Positions 45,140-48,282 of a stretch of 64,000 bases of DNA are shown piece after piece. Under the pieces are notes generated by a model. The model did not search any database and was not told the origin of the DNA. It worked only from the letters and a program-made list of their open reading frames with translations. The position numbers were made by a program, and so were the translations under genes. Origin of the DNA: Hydrococcus rivularis NIES-593 (GTDB lineage: Bacteria > Cyanobacteriota > Cyanobacteriia > Cyanobacteriales > Microcystaceae); contig NZ_MRCB01000013.1 in NCBI RefSeq assembly GCF_001904635.1, forward strand, positions 1 through 64,000, in the 5' to 3' direction. Each line of letters opens with the position of its first letter. Position 1 is the first letter of the stretch.

Positions 45140-45814
45140 TTATCTAACAGCATATTGCTCGACTTGCTGCTTGACAGATCTGAGCAAGTTTTCCAAGGTA
45201 TCTTCGTAAATCCCATAAAATAAGGCGCGATCCTTGTCTTTCGGGACGACGGAGACTTGATGGGTAATCAGAACTCGATCAGACGCAACGGGATCGATTC
45301 GCCAAGCGCCTTTGAGGGAGTTTAAATCTCCTTGAACCAGGCTAAAATCAATTTGCTTGGGATAGGTTTCTGTTGCGGCAATGCGAACGCGCTCCTCCTT
45401 AGTAAAAATTAGAGCATTGATGACGTAAACCTGTTCAAAAACTTTCCGATTGCCTTTATTTTCTACAATTTGGCTAGAGACGACGTTGGGATAAAAGTTC
45501 TCGAAATTATCGTAGTCGGTTAACACCTTCCAAACCGTGGCAACGGGTGCATTGACTAACACTCGACAAGTATATTGTCCTTCGCGACCCGTCAGAACGG
45601 CTGCCCCCGATTCTAGGGCGGCTTGTTCTTGGGCTGGAAGACTCGCGATCGGGTTGTTAGCCGCCCCTGCCAAGGCTAAAGGACTTAATACTAGAGTTGC
45701 GCCGAGAGCGATGGCGGGAAGGGAACCTGCCAGCGATCGACGGTGCTTTTGGAGATGAGGAGTTACGAACACTGCTAAACCTGATGACACTAAATTTCGC
45801 CTATTGTATATCAT
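45140..45814 (-). CDS. Exported START/SRPBCC-fold protein coupled to the ketosynthase gene
   Basis: The 224-aa protein has an N-terminal membrane or signal segment at about residues 28-51 (LAGSLPAIALGATLVLSPLA). A START/polyketide-cyclase-like fold follows: VLVNAPVATVWKVLTDYDNFENFYP, KVFEQVYVINALIF, and VLITHQVSVVPKDKDRALFY, with a C-terminal helix LENLLRSVKQQVEQY. Such folds bind hydrophobic ligands or act as aromatase/cyclases. The ATG overlaps the ketosynthase stop (ATGA), which points to translational coupling. The frame extends to 45904, but that part overlaps the upstream gene. Confidence 0.85.
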   Translation of the reverse strand: MIYNRRNLVSSGLAVFVTPHLQKHRRSLAGSLPAIALGATLVLSPLALAGAANNPIASLPAQEQAALESGAAVLTGREGQYTCRVLVNAPVATVWKVLTDYDNFENFYPNVVSSQIVENKGNRKVFEQVYVINALIFTKEERVRIAATETYPKQIDFSLVQGDLNSLKGAWRIDPVASDRVLITHQVSVVPKDKDRALFYGIYEDTLENLLRSVKQQVEQYAVR

Positions 45815-48282
45815 GTTGTTTCTATCCAATAACGTTGTCTCTGAAACGGATAGGTAGGTAATATTACCTTGCGACGCAGATAGTCTCGGTCGAAACCCAA
45901 CCAATCTATAGATGCTCCCCGCAAGTATAACTGGAGTAGGCTCAATAAGATTTGTTGCCAGTCTTCTCGCTCTGGTGACAAACTAGACAGCCAGAGTCCG
46001 CTGGCTTCGGTTTTTAGGAAAGTGGGCTGGGGACTAATTTCTATCAAGATCTCACAACCTAACTGGTGTAAAGTTTTGATTCCCTCTGTTAACTTCATCG
46101 ATGATTTTTCGCGATCGCGCCAATAATCAGGAGTTATTAGAGCAGCATTGGCAACTTTTCCGGTTTTCGGAGAAATTATCGGAATTTGGGGATCGCAATA
46201 GCGGACTGCCCCAGTCGTTGCCTCCGCAGAAGTGGCAATTAATTGCAAGCAGTCTTCTAAGCTCAATACTCCTGCCACGCAAGCAGCCACGAATTCTCCT
46301 ACTCCATAGCCCATAACAACAGAGGGTTCTATTCCCCAGGATTTCCACAATTGCCATAAGGCATATTCGAGAGCAAAGGTTCTGAATTTTGAATTATCAA
46401 CTTTGAATTCTGAAGAAAAGATTTCAGTACATGTATCGATAGCAGTGCGGAAAGTGGGTTGGGTTTCGTAGAGTTTTTGTCCCAAGGTAAAATATTGTGA
46501 ATCTTCTTGTGCAAACAGAAATGCTATCTTAGGGCGATTGGGATTGGGAACTCGTCCTTGCAGGATTCCTTGAGCGTTTTGCGCGATTGTAAAATTAGCC
46601 AACTTCTCCCGCAGTTGAGCGACACAAGAGGCAATAATGCCCAATCGATAGTCAAAATGCGATCGCCCTGTATTCGCAGTAAAACAAATATCTCCTATTT
46701 CTAAAAACGGATGAGATTCTAAAAAGATTGCATATCGTTGGGCTAACTCTCTCAAAGCTTTCTCATTTTTGGCTGAGAGAGTCAATAAATGTAGCGGGCG
46801 TTCGATGATTTCCGACTTCTGTAGGGGCGGATTTTTGAGATTAACGGTTGCTAATTTTCCGGAGTTTTCAAATAAACCCGCCCCTACAACTCCTGACTCC
46901 CGAACGACGACATGAGCGTTAGTACCGTTAAAGCCAAAGGAACTAACTCCTGCTAGGCGCGGTTTTTCTCCTCTCAACCAGGAAATTCTTTGTGTCGGCA
47001 CTTTTATCGGCAGTTCCTTCCAATTAATATGGGGATTGGGAACCTGGAAATGCAAATTGGGTGGAATCTCTTCGTTTTGAAGCGCAAGAACCACTTTAAT
47101 TAGGCTAGCAAGGCCAGCAGCGGCTTCTAGGTGACCGATATTGGTTTTTACCGAACCGATTATTAACCGTCGATCGCCAGAACGTTTCTTGCCAAATACT
47201 TCGCCTATCGCTCCTATTTCAATGGGATCTCCGAGAGCTGTACCAGTGCCGTGAGTTTCTATATAATCGATCTGGTGTGGTTCGATGCGACTGTTTTTTA
47301 ATGCCTGTTCGATCGCCGCCTGTTGCGAGGGTCCATTGGGCACGGTCAGTCCGCTAGTGCGACCGTCTTGATTGACAGCCGAACCGCAAATGAGTGCGAA
47401 TATATTATCTCCTGCTGCAACTGCATCGCTCAGGCGCTTGAGAACGATCGCCCCGCACCCTTCCGCACGAACAAATCCATCGGCAGAAGCATCAAAGGTT
47501 TTGCAACGACCGTCGCTCGAAAGCATTCTCGCTTTGGAAAAATTAATACTCACTTCTGGCGCAAGAATTCGGTTAACTCCTCCCGCCAAAGCCAAATTAC
47601 ATTCTTGGTTGCGCAGGCTTTGGCAAGCTAAATGAACGGCAACTAGCGATGAAGAACATGCCGTATCTATTGATAGGCTGGGTCCGTTGAAACCAAAAAT
47701 GTAAGACAAGCGACCCGATGCCATACTGTGAGTATTGCCCGTTGTTAGGTAAGCATCGATTTCAGTTGGTTTTCTTGAGAGCAAGCGATGCCAGTAATCG
47801 GTACTGCAAATACCGATGAATACTCCTGTCTGACTGCCCATGAGCCGATCGGGTGCTAGTCCTGCATTTTCCAAGGCTTCCCAGCTTACTTCCAAAAGCA
47901 GGCGTTGTTGGGGATCGAGACTAAGGGCTTCTCGCGGCGCAATGCGAAAGAACTGCGCGTCGAACTCTTGTAGGTTAGGAACAAACCCCCCGTAACGATT
48001 ACACATTTTCCCAGGCGTATCTGGGTTTGAGTCGTAGTAAGTATTAAGATTCCATCGATCGGAGGGAACTTCTGTAACGGCATCTACTCCATCCCGCAAC
48101 AATTGCCAGAAAGCCTCTGGATTATCGGCACCGCCAGGAAATCGGCATCCCATGCCAATAATGGCTATTGGCTCGTTTTGAGCGCGTTCCAGGGCTTCTA
48201 GCTTGGCTTGCATTTGCTTGAGTGCCAGTAGGGCACGCTTGGTTGAGGATAGATTTTTAGGTTGTTCGGAGGCAGTTTTCAT
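45811..48282 (-). CDS. Ketosynthase with degenerate acyltransferase domain (PKS-like)
   Basis: The 823-aa protein starts with a helical docking-like segment (about 10-35), then a complete type I ketosynthase (36-460): active Cys209 in DTACSSS, His344 in ETHGTGT, His384 in NIGHLEAA, and GFNGTNAHVV. Residues 580-815 are an acyltransferase remnant. GQGSQ reads QEDSQ, and the catalytic GHSxGE reads GYGVGE, so Ser is Gly660. The middle of the domain is about 90 residues short. The post-AT linker (ILPTYPFQRQRYWIE) ends the protein. No ACP, KR, DH or TE is present. The START-fold gene follows with an ATGA overlap. Confidence 0.92.
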   Translation of the reverse strand: MKTASEQPKNLSSTKRALLALKQMQAKLEALERAQNEPIAIIGMGCRFPGGADNPEAFWQLLRDGVDAVTEVPSDRWNLNTYYDSNPDTPGKMCNRYGGFVPNLQEFDAQFFRIAPREALSLDPQQRLLLEVSWEALENAGLAPDRLMGSQTGVFIGICSTDYWHRLLSRKPTEIDAYLTTGNTHSMASGRLSYIFGFNGPSLSIDTACSSSLVAVHLACQSLRNQECNLALAGGVNRILAPEVSINFSKARMLSSDGRCKTFDASADGFVRAEGCGAIVLKRLSDAVAAGDNIFALICGSAVNQDGRTSGLTVPNGPSQQAAIEQALKNSRIEPHQIDYIETHGTGTALGDPIEIGAIGEVFGKKRSGDRRLIIGSVKTNIGHLEAAAGLASLIKVVLALQNEEIPPNLHFQVPNPHINWKELPIKVPTQRISWLRGEKPRLAGVSSFGFNGTNAHVVVRESGVVGAGLFENSGKLATVNLKNPPLQKSEIIERPLHLLTLSAKNEKALRELAQRYAIFLESHPFLEIGDICFTANTGRSHFDYRLGIIASCVAQLREKLANFTIAQNAQGILQGRVPNPNRPKIAFLFAQEDSQYFTLGQKLYETQPTFRTAIDTCTEIFSSEFKVDNSKFRTFALEYALWQLWKSWGIEPSVVMGYGVGEFVAACVAGVLSLEDCLQLIATSAEATTGAVRYCDPQIPIISPKTGKVANAALITPDYWRDREKSSMKLTEGIKTLHQLGCEILIEISPQPTFLKTEASGLWLSSLSPEREDWQQILLSLLQLYLRGASIDWLGFDRDYLRRKVILPTYPFQRQRYWIETT

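Follow-up and report, generated by a model that had tools for sequence, protein, structure and literature searches.

What can a ketosynthase (KS) do when its protein has neither a working acyltransferase (AT) nor an acyl carrier protein (ACP)? This question is raised by a gene in a 64,000-nucleotide stretch of Hydrococcus rivularis NIES-593 (the window; contig NZ_MRCB01000013.1, positions 1 to 64,000, from the genome G000). The gene (45811..48282, minus strand; 823 aa by open reading frame (ORF) list and Pfam) encodes a stand-alone KS with a dead, truncated AT, followed by the gene of a START-fold protein. We found that this lone KS belongs to a family of single origin, present in 21 genomes. 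All 21 also hold a polyketide synthase (PKS) that starts with a FAAL domain (FAAL-PKS), and 18 clearly hold a second PKS that ends in an oxoamine synthase resembling serine palmitoyltransferase (SPT; PKS-SPT), an association that is new here. Our preferred reading, held at slightly better than even confidence, is that the lone KS docks onto a partner and elongates in trans within a dispersed cyanobacterial lipid pathway. The first-pass annotation of this locus, which had proposed a functional KS fed with an acyl chain by another system, missed the FAAL-PKS and the PKS-SPT, the carriers of the ACPs, because they lie outside the window.

The KS part of the protein is intact, as had been annotated. 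Pfam matches complete ketoacyl-synthase N and C domains plus the KS-AT linker, the KS domain spans 47047..48174 (minus strand; Pfam and alignment), and the motifs DTACSSSL, ETHGTGT and NIGH hold Cys209 (47656-47658), His344 (47251-47253) and His384 (47131-47133), all three codons on the minus strand. The AT remnant (46003..46521, minus strand; Pfam and motif reading) matches only positions 2-116 of the 319 in the Acyl_transf_1 profile, with GQGSQ replaced by QEDSQ and GHSxG by GYGVG (GYGVGE), without the serine. About 90 AT residues had been reported lost; our estimate is roughly 100, because the KS match lies 338 residues from the post-AT motif in the G002 ortholog, and mostly 430-450 residues (range 420-487) in relatives with GHSxG. 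The remnant looks folded in the structure model of the KS (pLDDT 77), an appearance that is biased because the alignment behind the model held intact ATs. Downstream of it, a tail with the end LPTYPFQRQRYW (45814..46002, minus strand) is retained even in members without an AT. The Pfam scan found no PP-binding domain in the window protein, which bears out the reported lack of a carrier protein. Modules of trans-AT PKSs also lack an AT of their own, but they keep an ACP.

The gene is not unique to this strain. KS and START are neighbours in all four genomes of the window's genus (G000, G001, G002, G003). The G002 ortholog is 95% identical and carries the same AT remnant; in the G001 and G003 orthologs (76%) the AT is gone, the KS, the linker and the LPTYPFQRQRYW tail remain, and the KS-START pair sits in a different gene neighbourhood. 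The same family contains two more members outside the genus (G013, G020), and other families contain those of G131, G308, G163, G229, G243, G275, G093, G114, G177, G271, G215, G098 and G317. The total of 21 genomes includes broken copies in G285 and G289. KS-query searches were run on the 50 genomes of the family, on 39 relatives and on 20 selected genomes within an order of 388 genomes; these 20, like the 26 of the FAAL-PKS search, were chosen as part-holders or sisters, and the counts are not those of a random sample. Lone KSs with a longer AT remnant escaped a junction query across all 388 genomes. Not counted in the family were G316 (L173, a KS-deltaAT-ACP protein of the KS0 kind described below, with a copy, L052, in the KS0 clade), G037 (row L084, apart in a quick tree), G247 (a 1293-aa PKS ORF) and G057 (a 964-aa ORF, not examined). 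The short KS ORFs G041:C150, G000:C16, G003:C199 and G001:C490 fall outside the lone-KS clade in trees; those of G041:C5, G043:C137, G019:C239, G003:C163 and G040:C30 were not examined and stand outside the counts.

In a KS tree of 71 rows, made up of 20 lone KSs (G289 omitted as broken) and 51 others, the lone KSs form one clade with support of 100/98, recovered in 100% of 200 bootstrap trees and spanning five family codes (f1, f2, f17, f19, f25). The nearest rows outside it are KSs with an intact GHSxG, in a tree that holds no reference trans-AT KSs. A Trp164-His165 signature marks 19 of the 20 members, and its residues occur in 0 and 1 of the 51 other rows. All 20 keep His344 of the HGTGT motif, which is lost in 7 of the 51. 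Among the 19 aligned lone KSs (G285 and G289 not aligned), Cys209, His344, Lys379 and His384 are invariant and the AT is dead or deleted in every one: its site region is gone in 13, and each of the 6 remnants has lost the serine, reading GYGVG (window, G002), GDEVG (G243, G275), AHGVG (G098) or SHGIG (G317). Given the deletion in 13 orthologs, the earlier suggestion that the AT remnant serves as a scaffold is not supported.

Selection on the two parts of the protein was compared by the Nei-Gojobori method. For the KS domain, dN/dS is 0.111 between window and G002, 0.125 between G003 and G001, and 0.121 between G013 and G020; the value of 0.066 between window and G003 comes with a saturated dS of 1.8. 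The AT remnant gives 0.29 for window and G002, the sole pair having a remnant, and six neighbouring genes of that pair range from 0.009 to 0.159. The KS is thus under purifying selection, and the AT remnant less so, still below 1. These data bear on the idea that a former PKS module is in ongoing decay and has been retained by chance. Stepwise loss of the AT, the broken copies in two genomes (G285, G289) and the 134 aa of KS left in G226 would fit such a course, but invariant catalytic residues, low dN/dS and a clade across five families make it extremely unlikely. The lone KSs form a family of single origin, neither decaying nor confined to one strain; with no intact-AT orthologs found, many species represented and low KS dN/dS, the annotation's preference for a functional KS over gene decay holds.

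The neighbourhoods of other members point to the partners. The lone KS gene of G013 and G020 is divergent from that of a FAAL-PKS with the architecture FAAL-ACP-KS-AT-DH-ER-KR-ACP. The gene after the FAAL-PKS encodes the PKS-SPT (split into two ORFs in G013), a KS-AT-DH-ER-KR-ACP protein with an oxoamine synthase at its C-terminus. In G000 the PKS-SPT lies on contig C57, and contig C67 carries a relative that is 95% identical to the FAAL-PKS of G002. The FAAL-PKS homologs of the 21 lone-KS genomes have best segments of at least 43% identity, with G317 at 39-53% in pieces on one contig; their ORFs are split or partial in G001, G003, G275, G285 and G289. Within the 50-genome family, six genomes have the lone KS among the matches listed, and the same six have a PKS-fused oxoamine synthase; the value of 1/C(50,6) = 6e-8 for that match treats as independent six genomes that really represent two lineages. 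Across the order, an oxoamine synthase clearly fused to a PKS occurs in 18 of 388 genomes, every one of which also carries the lone KS. They comprise 16 with ORFs of 2142-3149 aa plus the split genes of G013 and G229, and the calls rest on a full-length or Pfam match in 16 and on ORF length alone for G003 and G317. G275 and G289 hold oxoamine-synthase fragments. The PKS-SPT count excludes lower-identity oxoamine-synthase ORFs of 1085-1693 aa in G339, G239, G264, G186, G031 and G336, as well as a second such ORF in G271; among these genomes the lone-KS search covered G339 and G271. The KS search found no lone KS in G339, yet a FAAL hit at 54% is present there. G299 (82% complete) has an oxoamine-synthase fragment, and neither lone KS nor FAAL-PKS was found in it.

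Sister genomes show the parts missing together. G147, the sister of G131, has no intact lone KS, no PKS-SPT and no FAAL-PKS, and its START protein is 93% identical to that of G131. The same holds for G092, of the genus of G243 and G275, which keeps START and has no intact KS, FAAL-PKS or PKS-SPT. G226, of the genus of G308, keeps START and its KS remnant and lacks FAAL-PKS and PKS-SPT. The best FAAL hit in these KS-less sisters is at 32%. Where G131 has the lone KS, a transposase-like ORF (by eye; L253 5648-8132) lies upstream of START in G147.

Physical linkage varies among the genomes. In G229, the FAAL-PKS, the KS, START, a GT4-like protein, a PMT_2-type membrane protein, the end of the PKS-SPT and a 580-aa protein without Pfam match are encoded within 16 kb of a 99-kb contig, with the rest of the PKS-SPT at the opposite contig end. 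The G098 cluster contains the KS, START, a short-chain dehydrogenase/reductase (SDR), two hydrolases and a PMT_2-type protein. The lone KS thus stands beside the FAAL-PKS in G013, G020 and G229. In another explanation, the lone KS is a long-chain ketoacyl-ACP synthase working with ordinary fatty acid synthesis and its FabD-made malonyl-ACP, and the co-occurrence with PKSs reflects shared ecology or co-transfer. The KS has every condensation residue and would need just malonyl-ACP, and G000 and G002 have the genes in scattered places; the retained docking helix, the co-loss in three sister contrasts and the adjacency to the FAAL-PKS speak against this explanation, which we regard as improbable.

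The termini suggest how the lone KS could reach a partner. An N-terminal, class-2-like docking helix (about residues 10-35; 48178..48255, minus strand) precedes the KS domain; the structure model places a helix at residues 13-35, and one is found in all 20 lone KSs (by pattern in 19 and by eye in G020). Class-2 docking domains have been proposed mainly in cyanobacteria, myxobacteria and other Gram-negatives, according to passages of PMC9113145. Searched against the PDB up to E 10, the first 38 residues matched only CurL and the CurK/CurL and CurG/CurH docking fusions (4myz, 4myy), weakly, at E 0.09-1.3. By sequence, CurL of the curacin PKS is also the closest PDB relative of the whole window protein, at 957 bits (4mz0); the alignment begins at residue 2 and takes in the docking region. 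CurL is the KS-AT of an ordinary module; the lone KS differs in lacking both an ACP and a functional AT. On the side of the presumed partner, an EAEALL-type C-terminal tail is present on the FAAL-PKS in 14 of 15 cases by pattern, with a similar tail in G098; one FAAL-PKS tail that was searched matched no docking structure. None of 16 PKS-SPT N-termini carries a docking helix, and the distance from the N-terminus to the KS motif is, by pattern, 5-9 residues in 13 of them, 24 in G163 and about 5 (by eye) in G177 and G229. As a control, the same tail followed by the same helix was seen in 6 of 8 consecutive PKS pairs, and the other two differ. Judged by these termini, the lone KS is a natural docking partner of the FAAL-PKS.

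Under our preferred reading, the FAAL-PKS would load a fatty acid and extend it by two carbons. The N-terminal helix of the lone KS would dock onto the C-terminal tail of the FAAL-PKS, and the acyl chain would pass from the last ACP of the latter to Cys209. The same ACP would then be reloaded with malonyl by the AT of the FAAL-PKS, and the lone KS would condense the two, giving an extra elongation. The PKS-SPT would extend the chain further and release it through its oxoamine synthase as a long-chain amino ketone. Finishing of the lipid and its carriage beyond the plasma membrane could involve the SDR (a possible relative of 3-ketosphinganine reductases), the glycosyltransferase-like membrane proteins and the exported START protein. 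All residues of decarboxylative condensation are kept in the lone KSs, unlike in the KS0 clade, which favours elongation in trans.

The same residues are compatible with a different reaction. The passages of PMC10006239 on CalA3 of calcimycin biosynthesis describe a protein with a docking domain and a KS, no ACP and a dead AT whose catalytic serine has become glycine, in which amidation requires all four of Cys, two His and Lys; the retained residues alone therefore do not decide between elongation and amidation. By analogy, the lone KS could form an amide (C-N) bond between the acyl chain of the FAAL-PKS and the amine of a long-chain base, acting as a ceramide synthase. Neither AT nor ACP would then be required, the partner PKS-SPT is predicted to yield an amine, and the lone KS shares with CalA3 the Cys, the two His, the Lys and the docking helix, the absence of an ACP, and a serine-to-glycine change in 4 of 6 AT remnants (by eye). 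Two features separate them. The lone KSs have a loop like that of elongating KSs (F449 in 19/20, G450 and F451 in 20/20), canonical at the KS SFGF site, where CalA3 has C436-L437-T438-L439 (numbering +12, our own reading; structures 7WVZ, 8I4Y, 8I4Z). CalA3 also keeps its dead AT and contains large DH and KR parts, which the same passages (PMC10006239) suggest to be necessary; the lone KS lacks these parts, and most members have no AT. We consider amide formation unlikely, while giving it more credence than any other rival to elongation.

The nature of the product can be approached through the oxoamine synthase. Its domain has serine palmitoyltransferases as best PDB matches (E about 1e-71), and 7 of 7 oxoamine synthases read have the motif GTLSKSFASCGG or one near it, a type of motif that we take to be SPT-like. 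An SDR is encoded beside START in G013, G020 and G098, and that of G013 has TSC10 as its closest PDB match (118 bits; next 97). A sphingoid-type product of the pathway is plausible from these matches. A polyketide-built cyanobacterial sphingolipid pathway in full, with the lone KS as ceramide synthase and the exported START protein carrying the lipid to the outer membrane, goes considerably further and appears to us doubtful.

Several observations weigh against elongation in trans within a sphingoid-type pathway. Among NCBIfam models, BioF ranks top for the oxoamine synthase (353 bits; SPT 323) with no cut-off reached, and the KdsR model matches the G020 SDR alone, far below its cut-off, with other SDR models scoring higher. 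The six matching control pairs all come from related KS0 clusters, other KSs of the same genomes bear such helices too, and the docking helix may be no more than a legacy of an ordinary KS-AT protein. The FAAL-PKS and the PKS-SPT are consecutive in G013, G020 and G098, so the chain can probably bypass the lone KS. In G000 and G002 the genes of the pathway are spread over different contigs or separated by 0.2-1.2 Mb, and the KS is not directly beside START in 11 of 21 genomes. In G308 (76% complete), with KS and FAAL-PKS, no PKS-fused oxoamine synthase was found, and the one present is of the ACP-fused kind, judged by length. The KS remnant persists in G226 without the two synthases, and the lone KS is interrupted by a frameshift in G285 and by stops in G289. 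The loci of G285 (L323, L271) have the FAAL-PKS and the lone KS split into several ORFs and a whole PKS-SPT ORF, reflecting either real decay or an assembly error.

The START/SRPBCC-fold protein (45140..45814, minus strand; 224 aa) follows the lone KS in the window. Its gene probably starts at ATG 45814, TTG 45904 being merely a mechanical ORF start; with this start, it overlaps the KS stop by ATGA, as annotated before. The START/Polyketide_cyc domain (PF03364, E 3.8e-16) covers 45242..45556, and a predicted signal peptide, a hydrophobic stretch followed by ALAGA, covers 45662..45814 (both minus strand). The signal peptide was called by hydropathy and by eye, without a dedicated predictor. The structure model (pLDDT 58) has START, ZhuI and PYL proteins as best fold matches at a TM of about 0.3, and is too weak for a description of the cavity. 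By hydropathy, all 15 START proteins inspected, that of the window included, have a hydrophobic N-terminus, weakest in G098 and G229, and most have an AxA-like site by eye. The START protein should accordingly be exported and reside outside the cytoplasm, judging by this predicted signal.

KS and START are same-strand neighbours, with gaps of -10 to +35 bases, in 10 of the 21 lone-KS genomes (G000, G001, G002, G003, G131, G308, G229, G243, G275, G098). A START paralog (39-49% to references) is convergent with the 3' end of the FAAL-PKS in G093, G114, G177, G215, G271 and G285; START is unlinked from the lone KS in G013, G020 and G163, and the short flanks of the lone KS of G317 and G289 showed none. 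START homologs occur in 156 of the 388 genomes (E <= 1e-15), far more than the lone KS, and START dN/dS is 0.236, 0.118 and 0.195 (Nei-Gojobori). The coupling of KS and START emphasized in the first-pass annotation is therefore upheld in part: the pair is real and conserved in distant genera, but START is predicted to be exported, is more widespread and stands elsewhere unlinked or beside the FAAL-PKS, leading a life of its own. That START is the direct working partner of the KS, a cyclase or carrier that shapes or holds its product, agrees with the adjacent pairs, overlapping or with short gaps, and with the Pfam assignment. Signal-peptide-like N-termini in all the proteins inspected, at odds with the cytosolic PKS partner that an aromatase/cyclase should be, make direct contact unlikely, and START persists where the KS was lost (G147, G092, G226); we rate this partnership as very improbable.

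Known lipid systems resemble this one in part. The cyanobacterial olefin synthase (OLS) has a FAAL-ACP-PKS start, as does the FAAL-PKS here, and passages of PMC3903477 include former Pleurocapsales among OLS strains. The FAAL-PKS adds DH and ER domains, and the PKS after it terminates in an oxoamine synthase, where OLS has a sulfotransferase and a thioesterase; neither of the latter was found by Pfam in the proteins scanned. An olefin synthase was therefore rejected for the FAAL-PKS beside the lone KS in G013 and G020, as the second PKS ends in an oxoamine synthase of the aminotransferase fold. In Caulobacter, according to passages of PMC9386255, a special ACP and an acyl-ACP synthetase (AcpR, AasR) supply acyl-ACP to serine palmitoyltransferase; here, multidomain PKSs would make the acyl-ACP, and the SPT-like domain forms part of a PKS. 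The lone KS, if the preferred reading is true, would be a second case beside CalA3 of a KS working without its own AT and ACP, in a family in which the AT was lost repeatedly. What was an odd gene is now a defined family for which a partner, a docking site and a pathway are predicted, and whether and how cyanobacteria build sphingolipid-like lipids becomes testable, with the PKS-SPT, an ACP-SPT didomain and the lone KS as candidates. No paper on this combination was found in the searches made of an open-access library.

The ACP-SPT didomain is a stand-alone fusion of ACP and oxoamine synthase (L322 1785-3407; Pfam, L322 only), with similar ORFs of about 530-580 aa at other loci. An oxoamine synthase of either kind, PKS-fused or didomain, occurs in 97 of the 388 genomes (E <= 1e-90). 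A second AOS of 571 aa in Moorea producens, mentioned in passages of PMC8895605, may be of the didomain kind.

The terminal KS0-AT0-ACP modules (G000:C30 and Nostocales) were considered as parents of the lone KS, with which they share a dead AT with GYGVG or a similar motif, at 58-62% identity for G000:C30. They were rejected, as they form a separate clade in the tree, so the AT motif in common would stem from either convergence or recombination; these modules have lost the HGTGT histidine and kept the ACP, the opposite of the lone KS on both counts. The KS0 clade comprises L077 7069-10059 (G000:C30), L040, L041, L048, L050, L117, L059 and L052, with HGTGT changed to QGTGT or NGTGT (L052 motif not read), the AT dead or deleted and an ACP present. 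A protein of about 620 aa follows the KS0 modules, with TubC_N as sole Pfam domain in L077 and the others alike by N-terminus. Elsewhere, a KS-AT gene of Microseira wollei contains two TnpB-like ORFs (by eye; L061 6594-7514 and 8810-10021). One contig (L043/L079), recorded under the title Candidatus Gracilibacteria, shares proteins with G003:C64 and looks cyanobacterial; its record is likely mislabelled or contaminated.

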